Positions 1-20,130 of a stretch of DNA of 35,907 bases are shown here, one piece after another. The notes below the pieces were generated by a model that saw nothing but the letters and a program-made list of their open reading frames with translations, ran no database searches and was not told the origin of the DNA. Numbering within the stretch: position 1 is the stretch's first letter; each line of letters begins with the position of its first letter. The DNA lies in contig CANRME010000003.1 of assembly GCA_947631655.1 (NCBI GenBank), forward strand, positions 1-35,907, written 5' to 3'. The DNA is from an uncultured Bacilli bacterium (lineage in GTDB: Bacteria; Bacillota_I; Bacilli_A; RF39; UBA660). The position numbers and the translations under genes were made by a program.

Positions 1-351
1 AAAATAAAAGAGTTAGAATCAAAAGAAAAAGAATATCTTAATAAATTAGATACACTTTATGAAGATAAATTTAAAGGATTAGTATCAGAAGAAATGTATA
101 AAAGAATTGCTAATGATACTGAAATTTTACTAACTAAATTAAGAAAAGAAATAAATAAATTGAAAAATGATAACAAGATTATAAATAATAAAACTGATGA
201 TTTAAAACATTATGAAGAAAAGATTAAATCTTTAATTAATATTGAAAATCCTACAAGAGAATTAATGCAAACTATCATTGATAAAATAATTATAGACAAA
301 GATAAAAATATAGAAATAATTTACAAATTTAGCATATTAAATAATATTTAA
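1..351 (+). CDS. Serine recombinase, C-terminal fragment (5' truncated by window edge)
   Basis: Frame 1 is open from base 1 (KIKELESKEKEYLNKLDTLYEDKFKGLVSEEMYKRI...LMQTIIDKIIIDKDKNIEIIYKF). This resembles the coiled-coil and C-terminal region of large serine recombinases, including the one at 7514-9058. Confidence 0.7.
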   Translation, partial: KIKELESKEKEYLNKLDTLYEDKFKGLVSEEMYKRIANDTEILLTKLRKEINKLKNDNKIINNKTDDLKHYEEKIKSLINIENPTRELMQTIIDKIIIDKDKNIEIIYKFSILNNI

Positions 352-356
352 ATTAA

Positions 357-379
357 CTTTGCTCTAATTTGGAGCAAAG
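357..379. terminator. Hairpin CTTTGCTC-N7-GAGCAAAG after recombinase gene
   Basis: Perfect 8-bp inverted repeat in the intergenic space. There is no clear T-run, so it may be a weak terminator or another structure. Confidence 0.4.
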
Positions 380-429
380 AATACATAGCAAAAGATAAAC
401 TACTTATATAAAACAATAAAGGAGTATGA

Positions 430-1488: not shown

Positions 1489-1512
1489 TATTGAATTAAA
1501 ACTACACATTGA

Positions 1513-2694: not shown

Positions 2695-2709
2695 GTATCC
2701 GATTTTTTT
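2683..2709 (+). terminator. Rho-independent terminator of the LysM amidase
   Basis: AATCGGAT-loop-ATCCGATT followed by a T-run. Confidence 0.8.
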
Positions 2710-3142
2710 AGTGAATCTGTTTACAAACTCCTTCATAAGGTTCATAAAAACAATGACTTTTATATCTGCCAGATAATCTTTGCTCATACCATAAAGGAAC
2801 ACAACTTTCATTTCCTCTCGGAGCATAGAACCATAATGCGTTAGTTGCTGGATAATAGTACTCTCCTTGTAAAACTCTTCTCGCGAGCTCTTTTTCTAAG
2901 GTAGTCGCTGTGGAGAAAAACAAATTACTATTCACACCAGCAAAGCCTCCAGGAGATTGGTAGATAACTTGTGTAATAGTTTGAATATCACGGAAAGTAA
3001 GACAATCCGCAATCGCTCGATTTACCGCCACATTACCAACCATCAACATTCCTAAACTTCCTTCACCAATTGCCTCGGCACGCATTAATCTAGCAAGTAA
3101 GTCCAACTCTTTAGAAGTATAAGAAACTAACATGAATATCAC
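2708..3142 (-). CDS. Cell wall hydrolase, SleB/CwlJ-type (Hydrolase_2 family)
   Basis: LLARLMRAEAIGEGSLGMLMVGNVAVNRA...YQSPGGFAGV...YYPATNALWFYAP matches the SleB/CwlJ hydrolase pattern. Confidence 0.8.
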   Translation of the reverse strand: MIFMLVSYTSKELDLLARLMRAEAIGEGSLGMLMVGNVAVNRAIADCLTFRDIQTITQVIYQSPGGFAGVNSNLFFSTATTLEKELARRVLQGEYYYPATNALWFYAPRGNESCVPLWYEQRLSGRYKSHCFYEPYEGVCKQIH

Positions 3143-3177
3143 CTATAATAAATTATGAAAAAAAATAAAATGTGTTA

Positions 3178-3206
3178 TTGTGCAATACAAACGAATATGC
3201 TATAAT
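3178..3206 (+). promoter_or_regulatory. Sigma-A-like promoter of tRNA-Trp
   Basis: TTGTGC - 17 bp - TATAAT. Confidence 0.65.
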
Positions 3207-3288
3207 ACAAGACATGGGAAGTGATATTAAAATCTAATTTAAGAATTAGTGAAATGGTAGGATTTCATTGCAAGTCAATATGTAACCT

Positions 3289-3362
3289 AGGGGATTAGTT
3301 AAATGGTATAATAATGGTCTCCAAAACCACTGTTGGGAGTTCGATTCTCTCATCCCCTGCCA
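3289..3362 (+). tRNA. tRNA-Trp (anticodon CCA), 3' CCA encoded
   Basis: Acceptor AGGGGAT/ATCCCCT, anticodon loop CTCCAAA, T-arm GGGAG TTCGATT CTCTC, discriminator G then CCA. Confidence 0.9.
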
Positions 3363-3424
3363 TGTGTTCATTACACGAACTCGATTGCCATATTTAGATA
3401 TGGATTCGCAGTAAGTGTTCATAT

Positions 3425-3451
3425 AAAAAGGACTAGAAAATAGTCTTTTTT
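3425..3451 (+). terminator. Terminator downstream of tRNA-Trp
   Basis: AAAAAGGACTA-GAAAA-TAGTCTTTTTT. Confidence 0.7.
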
Positions 3452-3826
3452 GTTTTAGTTTTTTATAGGAGATGATTAGTTCTAAATAACGATAAATAAT
3501 AAATAAAACTTTATATTTTTAGTCTTTGATTTGCTCGTCAATTTATAAGTATATATTTATAGTTATTATTATTTGGTTATTAGTCTTTTATTTATTAATA
3601 AAAGCTAATATATGGGGATATTTTACAAATTTTACAATATTATTGTTATATATTTTCTCAAAGCACTTAATAATCGGTGCCATTTTATAATAATTTTATT
3701 TAGTAAATCAAAGAATATTTGGCAATAACATAAAAGCACTAAACAAAAGGGACGTTTATATGAATTGATTATGATTTATTAGTAAAAAATAAATTATACA
3801 GAAAATAAAAAGATACATACGCACCT

Positions 3827-4060
3827 TTAATCAACATTATCAAATAATTGTCTTATATCTATTTCTAAAGCATCGGCAATTCTAGTTAGAGATACAATAG
3901 TAAAGCCTCTTTGCATTTTTTTACTCTCTATTTTAGAGATAAAATTCATTGTTAATCCAGCCCTATCGGCTAATTGTTGTTGAGTGAAATTCCTATCTTT
4001 TCTATATTTCTTTATATTATATCTAATAACATCAAAATAATAATTATCACTATGTTTCAT
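3827..4060 (-). CDS. Xre-family HTH transcriptional regulator
   Basis: IKKYRKDRNFTQQQLADRAGLTMNFISKIESKKMQRGFTIVSLTRIADALEIDIRQLF is a canonical Cro/C1 HTH. Confidence 0.85.
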   Translation of the reverse strand: MKHSDNYYFDVIRYNIKKYRKDRNFTQQQLADRAGLTMNFISKIESKKMQRGFTIVSLTRIADALEIDIRQLFDNVD

Positions 4061-4103
4061 ATTAGTACCACCTGTCCATAGTATTATTATCTTAAAAGTT
4101 TTT

Positions 4104-4141
4104 ATACGGATATATGGACACGTTGTCCGTATTGTGATATA
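4104..4141. promoter_or_regulatory. Divergent promoter/operator between Xre gene and membrane protein gene
   Basis: Palindrome GGACA-CGT-TGTCC (4116-4128) nested with ATACGGA...TCCGTAT (4104-4110 and 4126-4132), followed by TATAAT at 4136. Confidence 0.6.
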
Positions 4142-4183
4142 ATCTTGATATGGACAAAGAGGTAATAGTGAGGTGAAAGAGGT

Positions 4184-4501
4184 ATGATGAATATGATATT
4201 ATCTATATTAGTAGTGGTTATTATAGCCATTGTTGCTATTGTATTTGCTGTTAAAAAGACGATACTTTATGTTGATAAAGAATACCGTAGTGCTGCTATA
4301 ATATCGTTCATATTCCCTATTGTAGGGTTGATAATCTATGCTGTTAATATAGGTTCCAACAAGAAATTAGCAAGAAGTTGTATAGCACCAGTTATAGCAG
4401 GCATGATAATTAGTGCAATAATAATCATAATGGTATTACTGATTCTTGGTGGCGTATATACCGGTGGCTCAGTACATACCAAAAATATTCCAATGAAATA
4501 A
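4184..4501 (+). CDS. Small membrane protein (about three predicted TM helices)
   Basis: 105-aa ORF with an AGGTG-type RBS and long hydrophobic stretches. Confidence 0.6.
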   Translation: MMNMILSILVVVIIAIVAIVFAVKKTILYVDKEYRSAAIISFIFPIVGLIIYAVNIGSNKKLARSCIAPVIAGMIISAIIIIMVLLILGGVYTGGSVHTKNIPMK

Positions 4502-4503
4502 AA

Positions 4504-4530
4504 AAAGGCAAGAAATGTCTTTTTTAATTT
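4504..4530 (+). terminator. Terminator
   Basis: AAAAAGGCA-AGAAA-TGTCTTTTTT. Confidence 0.6.
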
Positions 4531-4571
4531 CTACAAGAAATTTACTTTGCGAATTAAGTTGATAAAGAGAA

Positions 4572-5534
4572 CTATTTTATAGAACTCTTTTTATTTTTGT
4601 TGTTGCGACTTTTTTGCTTTCTTTGATTTTGTCTCGATAAAGTGCATTCATATTCTAAACAATATTTTTGCCTAAATCCATTTCTTTTAAAAATATTATT
4701 ACAAGCTGGATTTTGACAGATTCCTATTGTTTCATCGTTGTTATCTCTTGATAGTTGCATTTTTAGCTCATATATACCTAATAATAGAGCATTATCAAAT
4801 ATCATTTTAGTTTCCCAACATTCATTATCATAATCAAATGTAGTATCAAATGTACAATAACCTTTGGTGCAATTATCAAGAAATTCTAAATTTTCACTTA
4901 TTTTTGTTGGAATATCGTGCTGTTTTGTAGTATCAATTATATATTTATATATTTTAGAGTATTTATTTGTATTATTTGCATATTGTTCTCTTAATAGAAA
5001 AGACTCATAAATTATATAGACAACTGTGAGAAAATATAAAATAATACATTCATTGTCAGATGTGGTATCGTTATCTTCAACAACTGAAACGAATCCATAC
5101 TTTTCAAAGAAACTAATTATTTCTTCTATAAAAATTGATAAATATTTATAATTGTTTCTATATAACAATAATAATATTACATTAAAATATACACTATAAT
5201 TGTCAGATTTAGTGCAATTAGCTGTTATAAAATCATCATCTATAATTTCATCATTTAGTTTTTTCCCCAAATTAAAAATATCTACAAAAACTTCATATGA
5301 ATTAATATTATTTTGTATTTCTTGTTTAGGAGCCATATTTTCATCTTTTTTATATTGATAATTATACTCTCCAATACTTAATATATCACCTTTTTTATGA
5401 TTAGATGTTGGATTAACTAGTGATAAGTCTTTTAAATCATAAGCGCCAATCATTAATAAATCTCGCCAACCTTGATTCATCTTTTTTATAGCGTCTTTAT
5501 CTATATTATTTTTTACTCTTAAATATGCTTTCAT
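4572..5534 (-). CDS. Hypothetical protein with C-terminal zinc-ribbon-like motif (CGNR-like)
   Basis: C-terminal 'ICQNPACNNIFKRNGFRQKYCLEYECTLSRQNQRKQKSR' (C-x4-C ... C-x4-C) followed by a basic tail. Confidence 0.55.
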   Translation of the reverse strand: MKAYLRVKNNIDKDAIKKMNQGWRDLLMIGAYDLKDLSLVNPTSNHKKGDILSIGEYNYQYKKDENMAPKQEIQNNINSYEVFVDIFNLGKKLNDEIIDDDFITANCTKSDNYSVYFNVILLLLYRNNYKYLSIFIEEIISFFEKYGFVSVVEDNDTTSDNECIILYFLTVVYIIYESFLLREQYANNTNKYSKIYKYIIDTTKQHDIPTKISENLEFLDNCTKGYCTFDTTFDYDNECWETKMIFDNALLLGIYELKMQLSRDNNDETIGICQNPACNNIFKRNGFRQKYCLEYECTLSRQNQRKQKSRNNKNKKSSIK

Positions 5535-5811
5535 ATATTTACCTTTTTAATGTCACAAGCATTTCACAAGTTATATGTAACATTCCTTTTCTAAATATTA
5601 TATGATGTCATTGTAATTATTTCAAGCGCGCATCTTATAATTACGTAAAATGAATTTAGTAATAATTGACTTGTACAGTAGATAAGAAAGGGAAAAACGT
5701 AAAAATCCTTAAAAAAATAAGGGATTTTAGCAATTATTATCGGCAATTATATGTTACCGTTATTAATACTACTTCATTTGCAATTATTACCGATAAGAAA
5801 GGAAAAGTAAA

Positions 5812-6315
5812 ATGGCAAAGTATTTAATAGATGATTACGGCGATTTAATAGGTGAATTTAATGATGATGATTCAATTCGTGTCTATAATCCATTGAATAC
5901 TAAAAGAAGACTTATAGAGAATAAATTATTTTATAAATTCTATAAAGATTCAATATTAATATTTGTGAATGGGCTTATTAGTAAACAAGTTACAATAACT
6001 TTGTTTAAATTAATTCGCTTATTAGAATTTGGCACAAATGAATTTGTTAATATTAATGGTTTGCCTGCAAGCTTAAATCAACTTGCTACTTTCTTCCATA
6101 TGAAAACTAAAACTTTCTTTAATCATATAAAAAAGCTTGAAGAACTAGAAATACTAAAGAAAGTAAAAAATGGGAGAAATAGGAATATTTTGATTAATCC
6201 TTATTTTATTGGATATGGCACTAATTGTACGGATGAATCTTTAAAAATTTTTAGCAAGACAATCTGGGCTAAACAATCAAAATATTCTAAAAATAAATTA
6301 AAGATTAAAAGCTAA
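5812..6315 (+). CDS. RepL-like winged-helix replication/regulatory protein
   Basis: GGAAAAG RBS. 'LNQLATFFHMKTKTFFNHIKKLEELEILKKVKNGRNRNILINPYFIGYG' resembles the wHTH and 'NPYxFG.G' end of the Firmicutes RepL family. Confidence 0.5.
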   Translation: MAKYLIDDYGDLIGEFNDDDSIRVYNPLNTKRRLIENKLFYKFYKDSILIFVNGLISKQVTITLFKLIRLLEFGTNEFVNINGLPASLNQLATFFHMKTKTFFNHIKKLEELEILKKVKNGRNRNILINPYFIGYGTNCTDESLKIFSKTIWAKQSKYSKNKLKIKS

Positions 6316-6350
6316 TTTTTATGATTATTTTAGGGAAAGGAGGAAGTAAA

Positions 6351-6659
6351 ATGAGCAGGGAATACCCTTTTATAATGTTGATGAAAATCATTAGTAGTTT
6401 TAACTATAAAAGTGGTTATATCAAAAATTGGGATGATAACGAAGATATGGTAACAATTAACGAAATATGCCATATTGTAGGTATCAACACCAGCGATATT
6501 AATCATATTTTATCAATCTGGAGTTATTTTGACTTAGCAAGTGAATATAAGCAAAATAACAAAAGATACTTAAAAATATCTGATAAAGTTATTTCCAATA
6601 TTCAAAAAGGAAATATAATTAGATACGAATTAAAAAATACAAAAAGTAGACATTATTAA
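6351..6659 (+). CDS. Small winged-helix-like hypothetical protein
   Basis: GGAGG RBS just before ATG at 6351, which is preferred over 6321. 'MVTINEICHIVGINTSDINHILSIWSYFDLASEYKQNNKRYLKIS' looks HTH-like. Confidence 0.55.
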   Translation: MSREYPFIMLMKIISSFNYKSGYIKNWDDNEDMVTINEICHIVGINTSDINHILSIWSYFDLASEYKQNNKRYLKISDKVISNIQKGNIIRYELKNTKSRHY

Positions 6660-6735
6660 TTAACAGCATTTGCCATTTAAAATAGACAAAATAATAAAAA
6701 TGTGCTATTATAAATGTGTGAGGTGATAGGTTAAT

Positions 6736-7200
6736 ATGATTACTATAAGTGACAGATTAAAAGACTTAAGAATGAAAAATAAATTAAGTCAGAATGATTT
6801 GGCTTTGTCGCTAGGGATTAAAAGGCATACTATTAGCGCTTATGAAACTGGTAGTATAAAGCCCCCTATTGATAAGTTAATATTAATATCGAATTATTAT
6901 AATGTATCATTAGACTATCTATGTGGGATAACTAATAATCCTATAATTAATAGTTCTAAAATTGATGATTCTTTAGGATTTGATGTCGAAAGTATTGCAA
7001 AAATACAACAATTAAAACTAGCTAATAATATGCAGTTAATAATTAGTTTACTTAAATATGGAAGTATTGATTTGTTTAAATTGGCTAATAAATATTTAAG
7101 TACTAAATATGATAACGATACAAAGAAAAAAACAGATGAGTATGTTGTATTGGAAAAAATTAAGGATACTTTTGATGAATATAAAATAAAAAAAGATTGA
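6736..7200 (+). CDS. Xre-family HTH regulator (phage repressor-like)
   Basis: 'ISDRLKDLRMKNKLSQNDLALSLGIKRHTISAYETGSIKPPIDKLILISNYYNVSLDYLCGI' is a canonical Cro/C1 HTH. Confidence 0.85.
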   Translation: MITISDRLKDLRMKNKLSQNDLALSLGIKRHTISAYETGSIKPPIDKLILISNYYNVSLDYLCGITNNPIINSSKIDDSLGFDVESIAKIQQLKLANNMQLIISLLKYGSIDLFKLANKYLSTKYDNDTKKKTDEYVVLEKIKDTFDEYKIKKD

Positions 7201-7226
7201 TAGCTACGGCAATAGTTATCAATCAA

Positions 7227-7270
7227 GAGTACACATAAAACGGTTACCCCACCAATTTATATGTGTACTC
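7227..7270. repeat. 11-bp perfect inverted repeat GAGTACACATA...TATGTGTACTC
   Basis: Arms at 7227-7237 and 7260-7270, between the Xre gene and the recombinase module. No T-run follows. Confidence 0.7.
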
Positions 7271-7328
7271 CTATTATATAATAATTTAATTATTAAGACA
7301 ATTATTTGAAAAAAGGAGTGATAAAAAT

Positions 7329-7514
7329 ATGTTAAATGATATGCAAGTAAATGCGATTTCTAGTGTATTTAGTGCTGGAGATATTAAAGACTATGTAGAA
7401 AGAAATATATATGATTATGTATTATTTGAACAGAAAGATAATAATCCAAATTGTAATATATCAATGAGAATAGGTTTTTTTGGAACACTTTCTTTAATTG
7501 GGGGTGTTAGATAA
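7329..7514 (+). CDS. Small protein translationally coupled to serine recombinase
   Basis: AAAGGAG RBS. The stop overlaps the recombinase start (TAATG). Confidence 0.6.
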   Translation: MLNDMQVNAISSVFSAGDIKDYVERNIYDYVLFEQKDNNPNCNISMRIGFFGTLSLIGGVR

Positions 7515-9058
7515 TGAATGCAGTAATTTATGCAAGATATAGTTCTCATAATCAAACAGAATGCTCTATTGAAGGACAATTAGAGGAATGTAGAAAATAT
7601 GCAGAACAAAATAATATAAATATTATTGGAGAATATATAGATAGGGCAAAATCTGGAACTAAAGATAATAGAGATAACTTTCTTAAAATGATTGAAGATA
7701 GTAAAAGAAAAACATTTGAGGGTGTTTTGGTGTATCAATTAGATAGATTCGCTAGAAATAAATATGATAGTGTAATATACAAAAAACAACTTAAGGACAG
7801 AGGTATAAGGGTATTATCAGCAAGAGAGAATATATCTCAAGATGCAAGTGGTATTCTTATGGAAAGTGTGCTTGAGGGAATGGCGGAATACTTTTCTGTG
7901 GAACTGGGGCAAAAAGTCAGAAGAGGTATGAAGTTAAATGCTGATTGCTGTTACTATAATGGTGGAACAATACCTTTGGGCTATAAATTGGAAGTAGTTA
8001 ATGATGATAGGTTTAATAATGGTATTAAAAAAGCGGTTAAAAAGAGGTATGTAATAGATGAAAATAAAGCACCAATAGTTAAGAAGATATTTGAAATGTA
8101 TGCAAACGACAATAAAATGAGTGAAATTATTAACTATTTAAATGGTTTAGATTTAAGAACAGCTTATAATAAATCATTTAATAAAAGTAGTATTAGAAGA
8201 ATATTAGAAAATAAAAAATATATAGGTATATACACATATCACGGGCAAGAAACAAAAGACTCTATACCTAGAATAATTGATGATGAATTGTTTTACAAAG
8301 TACAACAAGAATTAAGAAAAAATAGTCTTGCTCCAGCTAGAAGAAGAGCTAAGACAGAATATTTATTATCTGGGAAATTATATTGTGGATTGTGTAGAGA
8401 AAAAATGACTGGAAGTTCTGGGACTTCCGAAAATGGAAAGTTATATACTTATTATGCTTGTAAATTAGCTAACAAACATTTATGTGATATGGATTCTGTA
8501 AAGAAAGAGGATATAGAAGATATTGTTTTAAAATCCTGTCAAGATATACTTACAAAAGACAATATTAATTTAATAGCCAAAAAGATTGTTGAGTATGCCA
8601 ATAACGAAAAAAATACTATTGAATATAAACAGTTAAGTAAAGCATTAAAAGATAATGAAAGAAGAAAGATTAACATTGTTAAAGCAATTACAGAATGCGA
8701 AGACAATACTACAAGACAAATTTTATTTGATGAGTTATCTAAAATCCAAAATGCTCTTGATGAAATTAATCAGTCTTTATTAATAGAAAAAGCTAAGCAT
8801 TTAAATCTCGGAATAACAGAAGTAAAGTATTTCTTAAATAATCTAAGAAAAGGAAATATAAATAAGTTTGAGTACCAAAAGATATTGATAAATACATTAG
8901 TAAATAAAGTGTACTTACATAAAGATAAGGCAATTATATTATTCAATATCAATAATCATGTAGAAGAGGTAAAAATATCTCTTCTTAATGATATTGAAAG
9001 TTCGCTTTTTAATGCAGTAGCTCTGCCACTAAGTAATGAAATGGCTTCGAAAAGTTAA
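7514..9058 (+). CDS. Large serine recombinase (site-specific integrase)
   Basis: Resolvase domain AVIYARYSSHNQTECSIEGQLEECRKYAE... DRFARNKYDS; recombinase domain; zinc ribbon YCGLCREKMTGSSG...YYACK; coiled coil. Confidence 0.95.
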   Translation: MNAVIYARYSSHNQTECSIEGQLEECRKYAEQNNINIIGEYIDRAKSGTKDNRDNFLKMIEDSKRKTFEGVLVYQLDRFARNKYDSVIYKKQLKDRGIRVLSARENISQDASGILMESVLEGMAEYFSVELGQKVRRGMKLNADCCYYNGGTIPLGYKLEVVNDDRFNNGIKKAVKKRYVIDENKAPIVKKIFEMYANDNKMSEIINYLNGLDLRTAYNKSFNKSSIRRILENKKYIGIYTYHGQETKDSIPRIIDDELFYKVQQELRKNSLAPARRRAKTEYLLSGKLYCGLCREKMTGSSGTSENGKLYTYYACKLANKHLCDMDSVKKEDIEDIVLKSCQDILTKDNINLIAKKIVEYANNEKNTIEYKQLSKALKDNERRKINIVKAITECEDNTTRQILFDELSKIQNALDEINQSLLIEKAKHLNLGITEVKYFLNNLRKGNINKFEYQKILINTLVNKVYLHKDKAIILFNINNHVEEVKISLLNDIESSLFNAVALPLSNEMASKS

Positions 9059-9177
9059 AAAAGAATTTTAGGAGATAATATTCTTTAGCTTGAAAGGAGC
9101 TGTTTTTTAATGATAAATTAAACGATTTTATAAAGAACAATTTTAAGAATAAAAAAGATAATTTATCAAACGAAAAC

Positions 9178-9206
9178 AAGGATGAGTGATTTCATCCTTT
9201 ATTTTT
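9178..9206 (+). terminator. Terminator between convergent recombinase and endonuclease genes
   Basis: AAGGATGA-loop-TCATCCTT followed by ATTTTTTT. Confidence 0.6.
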
Positions 9207-10526
9207 TTCGTTAAGTTTACTAAATAAGAAATTTTTATCTAACATAAAGCAAACTTTTGTAACATCATTTTGAAAAAAGTTTGTATAAGCCTCATCGCCT
9301 CTTTTACCCTTAGGAGCAACCTCTAGTATTTGACCATCAAATCTTTTTGGCTGAGGTAGCAATGATATATCATGTTTTTCAATGGCCTTTTTAACTTGAT
9401 TATATGTTCTTCCAAATAATTCAATATCTTCGTCGTTAAATGTTATTTGTCTTATACCCTCTAAAATTCTTTCTCCATTTTTTGAATTTTTACTTCCTTT
9501 ATAACAAATGACAATTAATGTAACTTCTTCAAAATAATTTTTCCAATAAGAGTCTTCCCAAGAATCTTTAAATTCAGTTAATACTAAATTTCTAAAGGAC
9601 ATTCTTTCAAGTGGATAGCCAAAATCGTTTACAGGTAAATTTTTAATAATATAATTAACTTTTTGAAATAATGGATTCTTAGTAGGTAGCTCTTTATCTT
9701 TTCCAATTAACTCATCAGAAATCATTTTACTTAATTGTTTTGGGACTGGTTCTGCTAATTTTTTATGTGTTAGATATTCAAAAATATCATTTTGTTTTTT
9801 TCCAATAAAATTTTGTATTTGAGCGAATACATATTCTTCAATTGTTTTATATTCAATGTTATCTACATCTAAAATTAAATGTGCATTTCTTAAAATACCT
9901 GTCATATAAGAATTTTTTAGTGAGTATGCTCGTGGCATTGCTAATTCAGTAGAAAATGGTTGAGTAGTTCTATCTTTTCCTGTAGATCCTTTGGGACATG
10001 CTCCCAAATAAGAAGTGTCTCCTTCAGATAGCAAATGAGCCTTTCCTTCTATTACTTTTTGTTTGATTAGTTCAAAATCATTTTTAATTATTAAAGAATC
10101 ACCAGTCATATCATAAAGTTGAAAATCAGTAATTACAAAATCCTTATAATCTTTTTCTCTATCATATTCATACCAAATAATTAATATTTTTTTACTTTTA
10201 AATAATAAATGACTAAAATCAAATTCTTCATGAACAATACTATTATAATCAATCTTTCCTAAAACTAATCTTTCTTTAGCAGAAATTGTTCCATTTTTAT
10301 TTTTTATATATCCACTAACTTTTAACTCTACGCCAAGATTAGCAAAATCAGCTTCAGCTTTGTTATTATTAGGATATTTATAAAAACCAGTTTCAATAAT
10401 TTTTCCCAAATTACCCTTATCTTTAGAGTTTGTCGTTAAAGTATTATTTATATCAAAATCTTTAAATGTTTTACCTCTAATTTGTTTGGTATATTCAAGA
10501 AGTTCATCAATTGTTTTGAAATTCAT
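9192..10526 (-). CDS. Type II restriction endonuclease, Sau3AI/MutH family (predicted GATC specificity)
   Basis: 'KGNLGKIIETGFYKYPNNNKAEADFANLGVELKVSGYIKNKNGTISAKERLVL' carries the MutH/Sau3AI active-site layout E...D-x6-E-x-K. An M.Sau3AI-like methyltransferase lies in the same cassette. Confidence 0.85.
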   Translation of the reverse strand: MNFKTIDELLEYTKQIRGKTFKDFDINNTLTTNSKDKGNLGKIIETGFYKYPNNNKAEADFANLGVELKVSGYIKNKNGTISAKERLVLGKIDYNSIVHEEFDFSHLLFKSKKILIIWYEYDREKDYKDFVITDFQLYDMTGDSLIIKNDFELIKQKVIEGKAHLLSEGDTSYLGACPKGSTGKDRTTQPFSTELAMPRAYSLKNSYMTGILRNAHLILDVDNIEYKTIEEYVFAQIQNFIGKKQNDIFEYLTHKKLAEPVPKQLSKMISDELIGKDKELPTKNPLFQKVNYIIKNLPVNDFGYPLERMSFRNLVLTEFKDSWEDSYWKNYFEEVTLIVICYKGSKNSKNGERILEGIRQITFNDEDIELFGRTYNQVKKAIEKHDISLLPQPKRFDGQILEVAPKGKRGDEAYTNFFQNDVTKVCFMLDKNFLFSKLNEKNKG

Positions 10527-10536
10527 TTTTTACCTC

Positions 10537-12225
10537 CTAGATTTTGTTAAGCATAATTTTATATTTTTTTGCTACTCTAGCAGAAGTATTAATATTTTCT
10601 TCTATTTTTTCAACTAAATAACTAATTTCTTCTAATGTGGCCAGAGAAAAAATCTCCAATCTTTGCCTTGCTCTTGATGCGGCAACATAAAAATTATTAA
10701 GATATTCTTCTTTCTCAATTTTGAATGGATTGAAATCTACTATAATAATAATATTAGATTCCAAACCTTTAAATTTTTTTGATGTTGTAAATAAAATTTT
10801 GTCTTTTTCAAATTGACTTGATAATGCAATTTTTCTTTTAATATTTTCTATGTTAATTATTGAATTATCTTCGCTTTCCATTGTTAAAATAGTAATATCT
10901 TCATTATCATAACCATCTTTCGTATAACTATTAATTTTTTCAATGATACTTTTTAATAGTTCGTCTTTTCTATTAGAATAATTTAATATTGGCATTATTC
11001 CTGAAATACAAAACTCATTTGATGTACTTTTACTACTAACAATACTGTTCATAGTATTAAGAATTTTTTGAGTATTTCTACAATTCTTTGTTAATTTTAA
11101 TTTGCAATCAAATAATTTTAATATGTTTGGCAAATTTTTATAATATAAAAGTTGGTTTTTATCATAAAATATGAATAATCTAATATTATTTGTTTGGCAA
11201 AATTTTACCAAATGCTCTAGTATTTTATCATAAATATCTTGAGCTTCATCAATAATAATATATTTATATTCCAATTGTTTTAAATCAATTTCTTTAATAG
11301 CAAGTAACAATTGAGAATCAGCTAACAAATTTTTCACAGAATATTTTCCTACAAAAGAGTGTATATTGTAATAATCAATATTTTCATAATTACATTTTTC
11401 AATTAAATGTTTATTAAGAAACTTGTTGAAACATAAAAATAATACTTTTCCGTTTTTTGCAAACCTTTTTGCTTGTTCTACAGCAACGAACGTTTTTCCA
11501 GTTCCAGCTCCGCCTTCAATAGCAACAGAATTTTGATCTTCAATAAAATCTAATACTTTTTTTTGCTCATTGGTAAGTTGTAAAAATACATAGTCAGCTT
11601 CATTTTTTACATTAGACGAAGAGGGAATTAAATCAAAATTTGGCATTAAAATATTTTCTATTACTTTTATTCCATTTTTTTGTAATCTGGTAAAACGTAG
11701 TCCATTATAATAATTAAATACTTTTATTAAGCTTAATTCTGGCGTTTTCAAATCTTCTTCTGATAATATTTGATTAATGCTATAGTTTAACGGTAATGTA
11801 AATTTTTTTATTTCATCTTTTGAAATAGATGGGAACCAGACAGCTTTGTCAATAAAACACCTATCACCATTTAGTAGTTCACCATCAATCTCTTCTATAA
11901 GCTTATATTTGCTTCTATCAGCTTGTTTAAAAGGATCTTTCATTTTATATTCTTCATTTGTGTCTAATCTTTTTTGATACCAATCACCATTTTCACATCT
12001 AATTTCTCCGGATTTAACTTCAATTATTAGAATTCCATAGATTGGATTAAAAATTGCAAAATCAGCTTCTCCCCAAGTAATTCTTCCGTTGTTATTCCTT
12101 TTTTGCCATGTTAATGAATAATAAATATTCCAAGAATTAGACAAGTTTTTTAAAGCCTGAAATATTTTATATTCACCTAAACTATTATGGAAATCATCAG
12201 ATATTTCTGGATAAAAATGTGCCAT
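10537..12225 (-). CDS. NERD-domain superfamily I DNA helicase
   Basis: N-terminal NERD-like 'GEYKIFQALKNL...WGEADFAIFNPIYGILIIEVKSGEI', Walker A 'IEGGAGTGKTFVAVEQA', Walker B 'YIIIDEAQDI', motif VI-like 'FYVAASRARQRLEI'. Confidence 0.85.
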   Translation of the reverse strand: MAHFYPEISDDFHNSLGEYKIFQALKNLSNSWNIYYSLTWQKRNNNGRITWGEADFAIFNPIYGILIIEVKSGEIRCENGDWYQKRLDTNEEYKMKDPFKQADRSKYKLIEEIDGELLNGDRCFIDKAVWFPSISKDEIKKFTLPLNYSINQILSEEDLKTPELSLIKVFNYYNGLRFTRLQKNGIKVIENILMPNFDLIPSSSNVKNEADYVFLQLTNEQKKVLDFIEDQNSVAIEGGAGTGKTFVAVEQAKRFAKNGKVLFLCFNKFLNKHLIEKCNYENIDYYNIHSFVGKYSVKNLLADSQLLLAIKEIDLKQLEYKYIIIDEAQDIYDKILEHLVKFCQTNNIRLFIFYDKNQLLYYKNLPNILKLFDCKLKLTKNCRNTQKILNTMNSIVSSKSTSNEFCISGIMPILNYSNRKDELLKSIIEKINSYTKDGYDNEDITILTMESEDNSIINIENIKRKIALSSQFEKDKILFTTSKKFKGLESNIIIIVDFNPFKIEKEEYLNNFYVAASRARQRLEIFSLATLEEISYLVEKIEENINTSARVAKKYKIMLNKI

Positions 12226-12227
12226 AA

Positions 12228-15200
12228 TTACACCTCATTTGGAATCAGTTCTAGATATTTTTCAACTTCATCTATTGCTATTATTTTCCAATCTTTTTCA
12301 GAGCATTTATTTCTTACTTCAAATCCACAGTACTCTGGAGAAATAATTAAATTTTCATTTACATATATAAATAGTGCCTTTATAGTAATACCTGAAATAT
12401 TTATATCAGTATATGCAAAATCAGCTATTTTTTTGTTTTCTCTATCTAGTAAATTACAATAATATTTATACTTTTCTTCTGTAACTAAATTTTCGCTAAT
12501 TCTCTTCCAACTATCATAATCTTCTAAACTATATGTTTCACAAGCATTAACATCAATATATTTTTCTAATTTTTCAGGATGTTTTATTATTTTATTTTCA
12601 ACTGCAGCAATGTTATCTATTTCATTTTCTATATCTTCTCCTAAAAAATACCTTTCAACAAAATTCCATCTTTCGTTATTTTGGCTATTGTTATAATGTC
12701 TAAAAAAATAATCTAATATCTTGACTGATCTATAATGTTTCTCTTTAGCCATTTCAACATAATTATTTTTATAGATAACCCTGTCTTCCACAATATTTTT
12801 AATTTTATCTGGTGCGTTTAAACGAATAAATATTTCTGGACTATCACCGCCCACAATTTCGTATGAAACTAAGTCTAAAATAGATAAAAGTTTTAATGCG
12901 TTAGAATCTGTTACATTGTCAGCATAAAATTGTTCATATTCTGAATTATTTATATACCTTATATTTTTTATTAAAGATGCCTTGCTTAAAATTTGTGTTG
13001 CCAATGTTCTTAATTTTCCATTACTAATTTGATATTTTTCAAATTCATTATCTTCTCTTCTTACAATACATTCATAGTTCAAATCTATGACATCAAAATA
13101 CGAATTTGCAATTATTTCAGCTTTAGAACTCTTATATCTTGAAGATATTTTATTTTTAAACTCTTCTTTGGTGAAAAAATTTCTATCAAACGAAGTTAAT
13201 GTATCAGTTAAATAATTAATCTCATCCATAGCCTTTTGATAAACTTCTGAAAGCAATCCTGATTTCGCTTTCATAGATAGCTTTACTCTATAGAAAATAT
13301 CATTTTTAATATCTCCCATAACATCAACACTATTTTTGTTAAAAAATTTATATTTAAATGATGCAAATGACATTTCTGAACCATATATATTTTCCCAAAT
13401 ACTCTTTAAATCAATTTCATAAATTGGACCCGGATCTGTTACAAGGCATCCACCAACAGCCTCACGGTTTCTTCCTTCTGCAATTTTAGTAAAATATTTT
13501 CCATATTTACTATTTTCAATTTTTAAAACATTTTCTTCTGATACTGAGGCATAAGCTTTTGTAAACATTGTACCTGGTCTAGAAATTAATACATATATTT
13601 TATAAGTTTCATAAAAATCTTTTTCAAGCATTAGTAAAACTATTTTTAATTTGTTTTCCAAATCATCTTGATTGGTTTTTCCAAATACACCATCAAACAT
13701 TTTGGGATTAATCATAAAATTTCGATGCTTTTTATTTAGAAATGTATCATAAATTATAGATAAACATTTCTTTACATGATATTGTTTGATTTGCGACATA
13801 CCAAATAAAGTATTAACATATTTCATGTCACCATTAAAATAGTCAACAATAGCTTTTCCATTAATGCTTTTATCTCTAGCAGCTCTTCCTATTTCTTGAA
13901 CATAATCACTTAGTCCACCAGTTACAGCATAGTGAAAGACATTATGAATATCTGAAATATCTATTCCCATTCCAAAAGCTTTTGTTGCAATCATTACATT
14001 TGCTTTTCCTTCGGTAAAGTCATCCATTGCTTGTACTTTTTCTTCAGCTTCTTCACCACTTCCGGTATATATTCTAATATCATTTTTAAAACATTTAAAA
14101 CTACTAAATTCTTTATCACCATTATAAATTTGGTGTGCAATCGAACTATATGGACAGTAAACTATTGTTTTATCATTTTTATCAATCCACCCATTTATTC
14201 TCTCACCTAGTTTTTGTATTTTCATATCTTTATATTGATCATAAGATTTGTCTGTGTAATTATTTATCTCAAAAGTGATATTTTCTCTTTTTGCTGAACC
14301 TATCTTTTTGATTGGATCATTCATAAACAAACTAATAATTGTTTCTGAAACGGTATCATCTTTTCCACCATTTACCGCAGTAGCTGTACAAGCAAAAATT
14401 GGAAAATCATGATGCCTTTTGCCTTGACCGAATTTATTTTGCATTGTTCTAAGTCTATTTATGTATGTACCTAAATACCAATAATCAGGTCTAAAGCCAA
14501 CGCCCCAAGTTGTAACTATATGAGCTTCATCTATGATTATAAGTCCGATTTCTCTTTCTCCTATTAATGAATCGATTGAATGTGATAGAAGTGTTTCAGG
14601 GCTAACATATAAAATGTCTATTTTTCCTTCTTTGACATTATTAATTATTTCTTCTCTTTGAACAATTGTTGCAATATCAGAATTTAAATATGCATGTTTT
14701 TTATATCCAGATTTGGTTAATATATCATATTGATTTTGCATTAATCCTTTTAAAGGTTCAATAATAATTATTAGTTTGTTATATTTTTCACTTAAATAAA
14801 TTGAAGGCAATTGAAAGATTAATGATTTCCCTGCACCTGTAGACGCAGTCATAAATATATCTCTATATCTTTTTCCCGCATATGCTTTTTCAGATTCACT
14901 AACTATGTATTCCATTATTTCAGCTTGAGAAATATCTTCCATTTCATCTGATAAATCTGGATCTTTATAAAATGATAATTTTCTAAAATTAAAATCTGTT
15001 TTACCAGTAAGTTTTGTACCTATTTTTTTTAGTTCTTCTCTAATAGTACTTGTTATGGGATATTCGCCAGAATATTTGTAAAGGATATTAATATTTAAGG
15101 ACTTCAATAATGCTTTCATTGATTCGAATATCATATTTGATATTTCGGTATTACAAACTTTTTTATAACCAATGGTTTTATAATTATTAGTAATGATATT

Positions 15201-15773
15201 TTGATAGTGTTCTAAATATTTTTCGAGATTATCGTCTATATCAATTAAATATTCACAATTATCTGTTAAATTAATATCGATGTTATTGTCATAAAAATGA
15301 ATAATTCTATCTATATTTGCATTATTTGGAAACTCATAATTGTAATAAGTCACATAATATTGCCCGTTTACCAAATAGATATTTGAATAAATGTTGTCTA
15401 AACTTTGAACTTTTAAATTGACATTCATATTTTCTTCTTCTTTATATTTTAAATACTCTAAGAACGTATTTTCTTCTATTTCACAATATATAGGATATAT
15501 TCCAGGAAAAATATTATTACATACTATTTTTATTCTTATTCTTCCAGTCTTGACAAAAATATAAAGTTGTTCATGAATTAATTCAAATTCTTCATAAGTA
15601 ATCCAAAATTTTTCACCACGTTTATTATAAATATATCCACCTAGTTCAAATGCATAATCATTAGTTAAATTTTTATAGTCGATTTTAAAATCTAAATCTT
15701 TTTCACTTAGTGGCAAATAATCTAATTTTGATAAAAAATCCTTATTAAACCCTTTATAAACATATAAATCCAT
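12228..15773 (-). CDS. RecQ-like DEAD/DEAH-box helicase with large N- and C-terminal extensions (about 1181 aa)
   Basis: 'TASTGAGKSLIFQLPSIYL', 'GLIIIDEAHIVTTWGVGFRPDYWYLG', 'FACTATA', 'IATKAFGMGIDISDIHNVFHYAVTGGLSDYVQEIGRAARD'. Start placed at the internal ATG (15773) with an AAGGAAG RBS; the longer ORF extends to 15854. Confidence 0.85.
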   Translation of the reverse strand: MDLYVYKGFNKDFLSKLDYLPLSEKDLDFKIDYKNLTNDYAFELGGYIYNKRGEKFWITYEEFELIHEQLYIFVKTGRIRIKIVCNNIFPGIYPIYCEIEENTFLEYLKYKEEENMNVNLKVQSLDNIYSNIYLVNGQYYVTYYNYEFPNNANIDRIIHFYDNNIDINLTDNCEYLIDIDDNLEKYLEHYQNIITNNYKTIGYKKVCNTEISNMIFESMKALLKSLNINILYKYSGEYPITSTIREELKKIGTKLTGKTDFNFRKLSFYKDPDLSDEMEDISQAEIMEYIVSESEKAYAGKRYRDIFMTASTGAGKSLIFQLPSIYLSEKYNKLIIIIEPLKGLMQNQYDILTKSGYKKHAYLNSDIATIVQREEIINNVKEGKIDILYVSPETLLSHSIDSLIGEREIGLIIIDEAHIVTTWGVGFRPDYWYLGTYINRLRTMQNKFGQGKRHHDFPIFACTATAVNGGKDDTVSETIISLFMNDPIKKIGSAKRENITFEINNYTDKSYDQYKDMKIQKLGERINGWIDKNDKTIVYCPYSSIAHQIYNGDKEFSSFKCFKNDIRIYTGSGEEAEEKVQAMDDFTEGKANVMIATKAFGMGIDISDIHNVFHYAVTGGLSDYVQEIGRAARDKSINGKAIVDYFNGDMKYVNTLFGMSQIKQYHVKKCLSIIYDTFLNKKHRNFMINPKMFDGVFGKTNQDDLENKLKIVLLMLEKDFYETYKIYVLISRPGTMFTKAYASVSEENVLKIENSKYGKYFTKIAEGRNREAVGGCLVTDPGPIYEIDLKSIWENIYGSEMSFASFKYKFFNKNSVDVMGDIKNDIFYRVKLSMKAKSGLLSEVYQKAMDEINYLTDTLTSFDRNFFTKEEFKNKISSRYKSSKAEIIANSYFDVIDLNYECIVRREDNEFEKYQISNGKLRTLATQILSKASLIKNIRYINNSEYEQFYADNVTDSNALKLLSILDLVSYEIVGGDSPEIFIRLNAPDKIKNIVEDRVIYKNNYVEMAKEKHYRSVKILDYFFRHYNNSQNNERWNFVERYFLGEDIENEIDNIAAVENKIIKHPEKLEKYIDVNACETYSLEDYDSWKRISENLVTEEKYKYYCNLLDRENKKIADFAYTDINISGITIKALFIYVNENLIISPEYCGFEVRNKCSEKDWKIIAIDEVEKYLELIPNEV

Positions 15774-15881
15774 AAATACACTTCCTTTTTGATCTTGTTT
15801 TTTATTTAAAAATTTTATACAATAATAGTAATGAAGGTTAATCTTTAACATCATTTATTATATAATAAATATCGATAAAAG

Positions 15882-15910
15882 TTGATCTTTTTCTTCAAAT
15901 AAATTATAAT
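15882..15910 (+). promoter_or_regulatory. Predicted promoter of methyltransferase gene with GATC inside the -35 box
   Basis: TTGATC (15882-15887) - 17 bp - TATAAT (15905-15910), followed by AGGAGG at about 15938. Confidence 0.6.
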
Positions 15911-15951
15911 ATATTTAGGGAATATAAACAAATAGTCAGGAGGCTTAAGTT

Positions 15952-17190
15952 ATGAAAAAAACTATGGTTGAATTATTTGCTGGTGTTGGTGGTTTCCGTT
16001 GTGGATTAAATCATGTGGAATTAAAAGATGGTAAGACTATAGAAAATGGCAATTGGAAATGTCTTTGGGCAAATCAGTGGGAACCAGCTACTAAGTCGCA
16101 AGAAGCATATGATTGCTATGCTAAGAGATTTGGTGCTGAAGATGTATCAAATGTAGATATATTTGAAGTTGATAAACATGATATACCAGACCATACACTA
16201 TTAGTTGGTGGATTCCCTTGTCAGGACTATTCTGTTGCTCAAACTCTTTCAAATAGTAAAGGAATAGAAGGTAAAAAAGGAGTTCTTTGGTGGGCTATAG
16301 AAGAAACACTAGCTATTAAAAAGCCACCATTTGTACTATTAGAAAATGTTGATAGATTACTATTGTCTCCTGCTAAACAAAGAGGAAGAGATTTTGGAAT
16401 GATTTTAAGAAGTTTCTATGAAAATGGTTATGATGTAGAATGGAGGGTAATCAATGCCGGAGAATATGGTCTCCCACAAAAACGTAGAAGAACTTATATT
16501 TTTGCTTATCATAAATCAACAAAGTATTATAAAAAAATGCAAAAAATTTCTGACTATGATGTGATTTTTTCTGATGGTATGTTTGTACAACAATTTCCTA
16601 TTAAACAAAGTTATGAAGAAATAACTGAATCTAATATTTCAGAATATAAAGATTTAGTAGAAGTAAGCAATTTATTTAAGTGTAATTTTTATAATGCAGG
16701 AATTATGAAAAATGGAGGTATTTATACAGTTAAAGTAAAAGCAGATTATAATTTGGTTTATCCACTAAGAAATATTCGTGAAGAAGAGCCAGTAGATGAA
16801 AAATATTTCTTAAGTAAAGAACAGATAGAGAAATTTGCATTCTTAAAGGGTAGTAAAAAAATCCCTAGAGTTAAGCCAAATGGTGAACCATACTTTTACT
16901 CAGAAGGAGCTATGCCATTCCCTGATAATTTAGATGCACCAGCTAGGACAATGCTTACTAGCGAAAGTGGAATTAGTAGAACAACCCATGTTATTGAGGA
17001 CTTTAAAACAAAAAAAACAAGACTTCTTACTCCAAGAGAATGTGAAAGAATAAATGGGTTCCCAGATGATTGGACTAATACAGGAATGTCTGATAAAAGA
17101 AGATATTTTATGATGGGAAATGCTTTAGTTGTTGGGGTAATTAAAAAAATTGGTGTTGAATTAGAGAAAATAATAGATGATGAAAATTAA
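15952..17190 (+). CDS. DNA (cytosine-5-)-methyltransferase, M.Sau3AI-like (predicted GATC)
   Basis: 'MVELFAGVGGFRCGL', 'LLVGGFPCQDYSVAQTL', 'LLENVDRLLLSPAKQRGRDFG', 'EWRVINAGEYGLPQKRRRTYIFAY', 'RLLTPRECERINGFPDDW' are canonical C5-MTase motifs with the M.Sau3AI-like 'WANQWEP...YDCYAKRF' segment. Confidence 0.93.
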   Translation: MKKTMVELFAGVGGFRCGLNHVELKDGKTIENGNWKCLWANQWEPATKSQEAYDCYAKRFGAEDVSNVDIFEVDKHDIPDHTLLVGGFPCQDYSVAQTLSNSKGIEGKKGVLWWAIEETLAIKKPPFVLLENVDRLLLSPAKQRGRDFGMILRSFYENGYDVEWRVINAGEYGLPQKRRRTYIFAYHKSTKYYKKMQKISDYDVIFSDGMFVQQFPIKQSYEEITESNISEYKDLVEVSNLFKCNFYNAGIMKNGGIYTVKVKADYNLVYPLRNIREEEPVDEKYFLSKEQIEKFAFLKGSKKIPRVKPNGEPYFYSEGAMPFPDNLDAPARTMLTSESGISRTTHVIEDFKTKKTRLLTPRECERINGFPDDWTNTGMSDKRRYFMMGNALVVGVIKKIGVELEKIIDDEN

Positions 17191-17282
17191 TTATTATGTT
17201 ATAATTAAAATAACTGAGATATCATTAAAATTATGATATCTTTTTTTAGTAATACTACTTTTTAAAAGTAATGTTGTCATGA

Positions 17283-18566
17283 ATGAGAGGTTTTTTTATG
17301 AGATTATTTAATGGTAATCAAATTGATGACTATATGAGAGAAATATGGGAGAAAATAAGAGAAGATATTAACAATATACCTGATCAAGATATTTTGTCAC
17401 TCGATATCAACGATTTTGTTTCTTATTATTATGACAAATACCATGTTGAACCAATAACTCTTTTAAAAGAAGAAATTAATTCATCGATTGAAGAAACAAA
17501 AATAAAAAAAGATAATCCATTTTATAGAGATTTTGGTTATGGACTAGAGCAAAAATATTTTCTTGTCGATGGTTATAGAATTTATTATGATATTCCTTTT
17601 AATGGCGAATCCGATTTACTTTTTTTACAACCAACTATGAGGATATTAAAAAAATTTGAAATAGATAATATTAAAAATAGAAATAGTATGGATTATTTGC
17701 CTTTTATTTGCTTTTCAGTAGAAATAGAGGCACAAAAATTAGATGAAAGTGATAATCCACAACAATTAATAGATGATAACTTTAAGAGAGAATTTAGTAG
17801 TTATGAATCAATGATTTCAAATGTTAATGTTTCAATAAATAACTTTAATTCTAACCTAAAAAATAAAGTTAATGAGTTATTAACTGAAAAGTATAATAAA
17901 AGTAGTAAATTTTCTTCTTTAATGAGTAAAATAAATATTCCTTTAAAAAGGAATGATAAAGCTCCAAATGTAACTCCTTTAACATTAAATATAAAGAAAG
18001 AACCTATTAAATATCCAGAAAAAAAGAATGTTAGTATTGACTATTGCGTTTCAGAAGATGACTATATAAACATCAAAGAAATTATCAGTCAATCCTGTAT
18101 TTCTTTTGAAAGCACTTCTCTAACTTTTTGTAAATTAAGTGAAGAAGAACTAAGAGATGTAATTCTTTCTAACTTAAATACTCATTATGATAATAAAGCA
18201 ACTGGAGAAACATTTAGTAAAGTAGGAAAAACTGACATTAGGATTCAGTTTGATAATAAGGCTGCTTATATTGCAGAATGTAAAATATGGCATGGTATTA
18301 GTGAGTTTAAAAAGGCAGTTTCTCAATTATTTAGTTATACTAGGTGGAGAGATGTCAAAACTTCACTAATCATATTCAATAAGGATGTTAAAAACTTTTC
18401 TACAGTTTTATCTAAAATAGATAATGAATTACATACTAACGAACTGTGCATTAATGTTCAAAACATTGAAAAAAATTGTTGGCAATGTACTTTTAAAAAA
18501 TATAGTGATTGTGATGAATTAATTCAATTAAATATTCTTGTATGTGATTTATTTGCTGATAATTGA
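17283..18566 (+). CDS. Hypothetical protein with C-terminal PD-(D/E)XK nuclease-like domain
   Basis: C-terminal 'GETFSKVGKTDIRIQFDNKAAYIAECKIWHGISEFKKAVSQLFSYTRWRDVKTSLIIFNK' matches E...D...ECK of PD-(D/E)XK folds. An internal ATG at 17298 is an alternative start. Confidence 0.65.
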   Translation: MRGFFMRLFNGNQIDDYMREIWEKIREDINNIPDQDILSLDINDFVSYYYDKYHVEPITLLKEEINSSIEETKIKKDNPFYRDFGYGLEQKYFLVDGYRIYYDIPFNGESDLLFLQPTMRILKKFEIDNIKNRNSMDYLPFICFSVEIEAQKLDESDNPQQLIDDNFKREFSSYESMISNVNVSINNFNSNLKNKVNELLTEKYNKSSKFSSLMSKINIPLKRNDKAPNVTPLTLNIKKEPIKYPEKKNVSIDYCVSEDDYINIKEIISQSCISFESTSLTFCKLSEEELRDVILSNLNTHYDNKATGETFSKVGKTDIRIQFDNKAAYIAECKIWHGISEFKKAVSQLFSYTRWRDVKTSLIIFNKDVKNFSTVLSKIDNELHTNELCINVQNIEKNCWQCTFKKYSDCDELIQLNILVCDLFADN

Positions 18567-18579
18567 TTGAAAACAGGAG

Positions 18580-20130
18580 ATGATTAACTTGGACGACAAA
18601 AAATTAGAATTGATTTTAAAACATTTTATAGAGTTTGAAGAATTAGATTTTTCTCCAAAACAAAAATATTTAGATTTGTATAGTGATTATGATGAGAAAT
18701 TAAAAATGATTTTTGTTTACTTTCACCAAAGTTTAAATAGTTTGCTTGAATATATGAATAGCCGTGGTGCAGGTGCTCACTATACAGCAAATGAAAGTCG
18801 TGAACTAATATATTTAATTGATAAAATTAGAGAATTAAAAATGATTTTAGAAAAAACAAATTATTCTTTTGCTATAGATGATACATATGAAGAGTGGATG
18901 AATAACTGCGACAGTTTTTTATCACAATCAGGTGGAAGTGAAATACCTAGTGATTATAAAAGAGTTATTTTGAAAAATTATGATAAGATTTTTATTTTAA
19001 CAAATCAATCAAACACTAGTAATATTTCTAATAAAATAAAGTATACTTTGAAAGGTACAGGTGCTTTTGCAAAGGTATACTCTTATAACGAACCTCTATC
19101 AGGTAAAAAATTTGCTCTAAAAAGATTAAACAAAGACATTATCGGAAAAGAATTAGATAGATTTAAACTAGAATTTGAAAAGATGAATCAAATTAACAAT
19201 CCATATATTTTAAAAGCATATTCTTATGATGATAAAACTAATAGTTACATAATGGAATATTGTGACTGTACATTAAAAAAATTTATAGATGAGAACAACA
19301 ATAAACAATATATGGATGAAAAATATAGAAAAAATATTGCACTTCAATTTTTAAGAGGATTAAAATATTTACATTCCAAGGACTTATTACATAGAGATTT
19401 GAGTTTAAATAACGTTTTAATAAAACAATATGATGATCAATTTATCGTTGTTAAAATAGCAGATTTTGGTTTAATAAAGGATCTTAATTTGGATTTGACA
19501 AGTACTGATTCTGAAATAAGAGGAACAATTATTGATGATACTTTAACAAGTTTTAAAGATTATAATAAAAAAAATGAGATATATGCTATTGGTGTTATTT
19601 TATGGTTCATCTTTACAGGTAAACATAACTTGTCTCAAATAGATAATTCTAAAATAGGTAATATTGTAAAAAAATGTATTGATAGGGATCATAGTAAGAG
19701 ATATGATAACGTTGATGAAATTATAAAAGATGTTATTGATATTAACCATGATATACCTAATCAATTACCAAAAAAAGAATTAGGTTTAAAAACAATTGCT
19801 TCATTTTCGCAAATGACGGGTTTAGAATATGGAATTGATAAATATGGATTTGATTTTATTCGTGCCATGGTGGAAGATACTATTAATAATCAATTAATTT
19901 ATACACATGATTTGGTTGGGGAAAGATTTCAAACAACAGATGGTAAGTTTATTATTGAATTATCAAAAATACCAAATAGAGAAAAAATATATATTAAAGA
20001 TTCCTTTAATAAATTATTGACAGATAAGTATATTAAATCTTTAAATTCAGAAAACTCTCTTTTTGAATTAACAAAAAAAGGATACGAAATTTATGATTTA
20101 TTTAAAAAAAATGGATTTAAGTATTCATAG
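18580..20130 (+). CDS. Serine/threonine protein kinase with extra N- and C-terminal domains
   Basis: Gly-loop 'LKGTGAFAKVYSY', 'FALKRL', 'HRDLSLNNVL', 'IADFGL', 'NEIYAIGVILWFIFTGKH'. The C-terminus 'SLFELTKKGYEIYDLF' is winged-helix-like. A TTG start at 18589 is better spaced from AGGAG than the ATG at 18580. Confidence 0.88.
   Translation: MINLDDKKLELILKHFIEFEELDFSPKQKYLDLYSDYDEKLKMIFVYFHQSLNSLLEYMNSRGAGAHYTANESRELIYLIDKIRELKMILEKTNYSFAIDDTYEEWMNNCDSFLSQSGGSEIPSDYKRVILKNYDKIFILTNQSNTSNISNKIKYTLKGTGAFAKVYSYNEPLSGKKFALKRLNKDIIGKELDRFKLEFEKMNQINNPYILKAYSYDDKTNSYIMEYCDCTLKKFIDENNNKQYMDEKYRKNIALQFLRGLKYLHSKDLLHRDLSLNNVLIKQYDDQFIVVKIADFGLIKDLNLDLTSTDSEIRGTIIDDTLTSFKDYNKKNEIYAIGVILWFIFTGKHNLSQIDNSKIGNIVKKCIDRDHSKRYDNVDEIIKDVIDINHDIPNQLPKKELGLKTIASFSQMTGLEYGIDKYGFDFIRAMVEDTINNQLIYTHDLVGERFQTTDGKFIIELSKIPNREKIYIKDSFNKLLTDKYIKSLNSENSLFELTKKGYEIYDLFKKNGFKYS

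Follow-up and report, generated by a model that had tools for sequence, protein, structure and literature searches.

Self-target GATC sites in the promoters of M.Sau3AI-like methyltransferase genes: probable autoregulation by promoter methylation

Why should a methyltransferase gene carry, inside its own promoter, the very site that its product is expected to modify? This is the question raised by one locus in the window, by which we mean the whole stretch of 35,907 nucleotides analysed here, from an uncultured Bacilli bacterium. Ahead of an M.Sau3AI-like C5-cytosine DNA methyltransferase gene (15952..17190, plus strand, 412 aa) stands a promoter, P1, whose -35 box TTGATC (15882..15887, plus strand) holds a GATC at 15884-15887, is conserved in relatives and is separated by 17 bp from the -10 box TATAAT (15905..15910), exactly as the first-pass annotation had read it in hexamers, coordinates and spacer. 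Transcription is expected to start near 15917, and 41 bp lie between the -10 box and the start codon, an ATG at 15952, which sits 3' of the ribosome-binding site AGGAGG (15938..15943, plus strand). We think it probable, from the comparisons described below, that the enzyme regulates its own gene in a negative feedback loop, by methylating this promoter.

The target itself has to be established before anything else, and here the neighbouring genes are of great help. The methyltransferase exceeds the cut-offs of both PF00145 (E 3e-63) and TIGR00675 (247 bits) in profile searches and matches the PADLOC model MTase_II (E 1.7e-163). The intergenic region 15774-15951 separates it from a divergent operon on the minus strand, in which a RecQ-like helicase gene (12228..15773; PADLOC C3a193 E 1.9e-155, as well as recQ models; start inferred from the ribosome site AAGGAAG) is followed by a NERD-domain UvrD-type helicase gene (10537..12225; domain and PADLOC searches) and, in last place, by a gene for a Sau3AI-family type II restriction endonuclease with the target GATC (9192..10526). 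This endonuclease reaches 335.9 bits with NF040973, for which 300 is the NCBIfam equivalog cut-off for Sau3AI, and it matches the Sau3AI structure, PDB 4pxg, at E 4.7e-40. Because of these two matches, GATC is well supported as the shared target of endonuclease and methyltransferase, and the GATC specificity that had been predicted for the methyltransferase at first reading thus gains support from its partner. The product is very likely GATm5C, judging from the C5-methyltransferase fold and the Sau3AI partner.

The surroundings deserve a brief word of their own. Positions 7514-20130 resemble a defence island, with a serine recombinase similar to SCCmec CcrB, Sau3AI, the NERD helicase, the RecQ-like helicase (PADLOC C3a193), the methyltransferase, a PDC-S54 candidate and a Ser/Thr kinase, and a RecQ-like helicase lies near Sau3AI in one relative (L054) too. 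On two plasmids, of Psychrobacillus glaciei (L117) and Staphylococcus simulans (L121), the same methyltransferase family with a TTGATC promoter adjoins endonuclease genes not of the Sau3AI but of the BglII/BstYI type.

Is P1 the whole story? The first-pass annotation had the anatomy of this single promoter right but missed both the tandem array to which it belongs and the extent of the device across the family. Three tandem promoters in fact face the methyltransferase gene, and GATC is found in P3 and P1 but not in P2. The outermost, P3, reads TTGTTT-17-TACAAT (15795..15823, plus strand), and a GATC lies flush upstream of its -35 box (15791..15794, plus strand), just upstream also of the divergent operon's ribosome site. 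The middle one, P2, reads TTAATC-17-TATAAT (15838..15866, plus strand), and alignment with relatives shows that its GATC has been lost. We count this loss against autoregulation, while noting that a G-to-A change on the plus strand is what would be expected from deamination of a methylated cytosine on the bottom strand. The divergent endonuclease and methyltransferase units share this one intergenic region, and a consensus scan, in which matches are at chance level, offers a weak candidate promoter for the divergent operon, TTAACC-18-TAAAAT (15812..15841, minus strand), overlapping P2 and P3; neither that scan nor the intergenic alignment of close loci revealed a convincing conserved minus-strand promoter for the endonuclease.

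The array is not a peculiarity of this one genome. Close relatives have two or three tandem promoters facing the methyltransferase, and the spacer is 17 bp in every one of them. P3 takes the form GATC-TTGTTT ... TAnAAT, the string GATCTTGT, the 17-bp spacer and TAnAAT all being kept in 23/23 distinct close upstream regions that reach so far, and P2 and P1 take the form TTGATC ... TATAAT, many close relatives keeping TTGATC at P2. At P1 the GATC occupies the same position in 22 of the 24 distinct close loci that were aligned; two loci (L012 and L013) are the opposite of the window, with P1 lost (TTAATT) and P2 kept, and GATC is retained in P1 or P2 at every close locus. In a further one (L021) 5 bp have been deleted from the P1 spacer, yet a TATAAT again lies exactly 17 bp away. 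The main difference is in gene order, since in most relatives the Sau3AI gene lies head-to-head with the methyltransferase, whereas the window has two helicase genes in between.

How unusual, then, is a single site of this kind? On its own, the P1 match to consensus is not above chance in such AT-rich DNA: 7 kb contain 55 sigma-70-like sites against 57.6 in shuffles, and we have discarded the consensus score by itself as a measure of the promoter. In the 1.23 Mb assembly there are 13 instances of TTGATC-17-TAnnnT, of which only P1 ends in TATAAT. In addition, the window has only 41 GATC sites where 104 would be expected, and the intergenic region nonetheless holds two (Poisson P about 0.018). 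As a separate matter, the first 9 kb of the window (1-9000) contain a single GATC, or 0.11/kb compared with 1.3-1.7/kb elsewhere, and GGCC is very rare throughout (3 sites, with 20 expected), a pattern that would fit the action of other restriction systems on this DNA.

The real weight of the argument is carried by the wider family. From 85,462 species genomes, 388 genomes of the phylum, viral contigs, plasmids and phages we collected homologues with 91 non-redundant upstream regions, and 46 of these contain TTGATC-16..18-TAnnnT, compared with 0.83 on average, and never more than 6, in 200 dinucleotide shuffles; the strict form TTGATC-17-TAnAnT is present in 39/91 (shuffle mean 0.055, maximum 2). 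Other genes on the same contigs behave quite differently, with the looser pattern in one of 597 upstream regions. Among promoters with a TTGAnn box, 53/73 ahead of the homologues end in TC and none in CA, whereas in those 597 control upstream regions 1/101 end in TC and 20/101 in CA; Fisher's test gives P about 1e-26 for the endings and 7e-45 per locus, on the assumption of independent loci, though the loci are related. The promoter is also absent from all 30 upstream regions of other C5-methyltransferase genes of the same phylum and from all 27 of Dam-family m6A methyltransferase genes. We have accordingly rejected a general host habit of using TTGATC (1/597 controls, and a single TTGATC-17-TATAAT in the assembly), as well as a trait of C5-methyltransferase genes at large or of Dam-family genes, with the proviso that several control starts were script-guessed, a few of them looking internal, and that the Dam model covers several specificities. 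With that same breadth of the Dam-family model in mind, the contrast suggests that m5C chemistry matters and not the GATC sequence alone. Seven of the Dam-family genes (L191, L193, L199, L204, L206, L207 and L211) have features of their own, an inverted repeat like TGTGTATTTTAATACACA often standing just before or at the promoter.

Might TTGATC nevertheless be an ordinary -35 variant passed on by common descent, or the site of an unknown regulator, on which methylation has no effect? Much intergenic sequence is indeed common to the close group, and the shared string GTTGATCTTTT exceeds GATC in length, but in homologues at 43-76% identity only TTGATC and the -10 box are conserved, while the sequence between the boxes and the flanks are scrambled. 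Moreover, neighbouring genes and the other C5-methyltransferase genes of the phylum do not use TTGATC, and GATC is found again at a second register that lies outside the hexamer, all of which leaves this explanation highly improbable in our judgement. The two registers are apparent as peaks in the distance from GATC to the -10 box among those same homologues, one at 17 nt, where GATC makes up positions 3 to 6 of the -35 hexamer, and one at 23 nt, where it lies flush upstream of the hexamer; in either case GATC falls inside or next to the segment that sigma region 4.2 contacts. On the protein tree the TTGATC state must have switched 12 times or more along well-supported branches, and the element has therefore been lost or gained repeatedly. 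From these comparisons we conclude that selection maintains GATC as a self-target, most probably for negative autoregulation by methylation, and the original suggestion that it is a meaningful part of the -35 box is borne out by family-wide conservation in fixed registers and by the negative controls.

It must be said that about half of the homologues are without the TTGATC form, which we count against autoregulation; some lie downstream of another gene and a Clostridia branch has an RNA leader, and these account for part of the deficit only. By script gene calls, the device is present at 40 of the 60 loci with a divergent upstream neighbour, and where the methyltransferase follows another gene at 4/19 with a gap of at least 60 nt and at 0/3 with a shorter one. 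In four Lachnospiraceae relatives (L049, L054, L062 and L073) the palindrome CGAACGATCGTTCG, or nearly that, is centred on GATC 20-40 nt ahead of the methyltransferase start, and could be an operator or another self-target.

What would methylation do at such a promoter? In unmodified DNA, as in a new host, strong P1, together with P3 and perhaps P2, would drive expression of the methyltransferase, whose activity on promoter DNA would turn GATC into GATm5C on both strands. Two cytosines of the -35 box would then be methylated, the bottom-strand one that pairs with its key G and the one that ends the box, and their methyl groups would project into the major groove, through which sigma region 4.2 reads the -35 element. 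Sigma binding would be weakened, expression would drop to a maintenance level, and it would be renewed once replication or dilution leaves GATC sites unmethylated. Silencing of P1-P3 may also free the promoter of the divergent operon, which ends in Sau3AI, much as in CfrBI; we raise this because the operon starts in the same intergenic region, and from the layout such release of the endonuclease by promoter competition is possible.

Could the sign be the opposite, so that GATm5C in the -35 box increases promoter activity and the feedback is positive? There is a precedent in Helicobacter pylori, where the GCGC sites of M.Hpy99III are likewise m5C targets at a core-promoter position, apparently selected, and where methylation makes several promoters more active (PMC8706393), a result that we again count against autoregulation. 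However, M.Hpy99III is an orphan enzyme affecting many genes and its site is near -13 (PMC8706393), and where methyltransferases are known to have their own promoters methylated the effect is repressive (PMC4824078). Positive feedback would also delay protection of a naive host, contrary to what a restriction-modification system needs. We favour damping because a promoter that requires methylation could not start expression in such a host, and activation seems to us decidedly unlikely.

A third idea is that it is the methyltransferase protein which represses: bound to the promoter's GATC sites, it would shut out RNA polymerase irrespective of whether it methylates those sites. The tandem sites are of course the enzyme's own targets and overlap the polymerase site, and SsoII-type methyltransferases are established binders of operators (PMC12707154). 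Those enzymes, though, as in SsoII, Ecl18kI and MspI, have an extra N-terminal HTH and a separate operator, whereas here the PF00145 domain begins at residue 4 and the domain search detected neither an additional N-terminal HTH nor any second domain. Sites of 4 bp are, moreover, found genome-wide and would confer little selectivity for the promoter, and we regard repression by bound protein as unlikely. Control by a C protein depends on a small HTH controller gene, and the ORF list of the window contains no such ORF in the endonuclease or methyltransferase transcription units, the nearest HTH_3 gene (6736-7200, 154 aa) lying beyond the recombinase gene.

Autoregulation by promoter methylation, which the first-pass annotation had called an established mode, certainly exists: repression of the methyltransferase gene in this way is established for CfrBI and LlaDII, to which reviews add AhdI (PMC4824078, PMC12707154, PMC3874152), although one recent review describes it as a logical but apparently rarely used form of restriction-modification control (PMC12707154). 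The closest parallel is CfrBI, which also has divergent endonuclease and methyltransferase units with its own target within the methyltransferase promoter; methylation there stops RNA polymerase at that promoter (reviewed in PMC12707154), and the overlapping divergent endonuclease promoter is released once it has been silenced. CfrBI has another target and another enzyme, and its one site lies within inverted repeats, whereas in the window two or three tandem promoters have GATC either within the -35 box or immediately upstream of it, and two helicase genes stand ahead of the endonuclease gene. In LlaDII and AhdI the methyltransferase promoter likewise contains the enzyme's own target, and its methylation represses the methyltransferase gene only (PMC12707154, PMC4824078); their targets and enzyme families are different, and the case for the window comes from comparison across a family. 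Sau3AI restriction-modification systems share both the endonuclease and the C5-methyltransferase families with the window, and are mostly head-to-head, without its two helicase genes between promoter region and endonuclease gene. The literature searched, which covered few subscription journals, yielded no description of promoter control in the Sau3AI family, nor of the breadth and fixed -35 register of the device in Sau3AI-like genes; the kind of control is already known, and it is this breadth and register that we did not find described.

In a Clostridia branch of 13 loci (L034, L037, L042-L045, L053, L055, L057, L060, L076, L078 and L098) a covarying leader RNA stands instead, about 100 nt before the methyltransferase start, with two stems and, around the ribosome site, a helix in which AAGC/AAGT pairs with GCTT/ACTT. 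Two-sided compensatory changes occur at 10 of 14 pairs, and no Rfam match was found in the 12 of 13 loci scanned; the leader is possibly a new cis-regulatory RNA in place of promoter methylation. Among M.HhaI-like genes, whose target is GCGC, TATAGCGCnnnGCGCTATAAT or a close variant precedes the start in three of four genomic loci at 70% identity or more and in 5/8 loci from the viral collection at 77-85% identity, a small sample without shuffled controls. At eight loci (L153-L155 and L212-L216) TATAGCGCnnnGCGCTATAAT lies just before the start and presents two own targets in an inverted repeat, the right arm being the -10 box; GCGC directly adjoining the -10 box thus provides an independent example of an own target in a core promoter.

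What does this mean for the family? It is about an even call, in our view, whether placing an own target in the core promoter has evolved repeatedly as a general means of C5-methyltransferase control rather than being a rarity, with GATC in or flush with the -35 box in Sau3AI-like genes, GCGC abutting the -10 box in HhaI-like genes and an RNA leader that would sequester the Shine-Dalgarno sequence as the alternative of the Clostridia branch. The data suggest that, within one large enzyme family, a self-target in the promoter is more frequent than any other arrangement, and that it is present in a second. How restriction-modification systems gain entry to unprotected hosts without lethal effect can thus be tested directly, and the rule that a methyltransferase's own target stands at -35 or -10 might aid in predicting what uncharacterised methyltransferases recognise.
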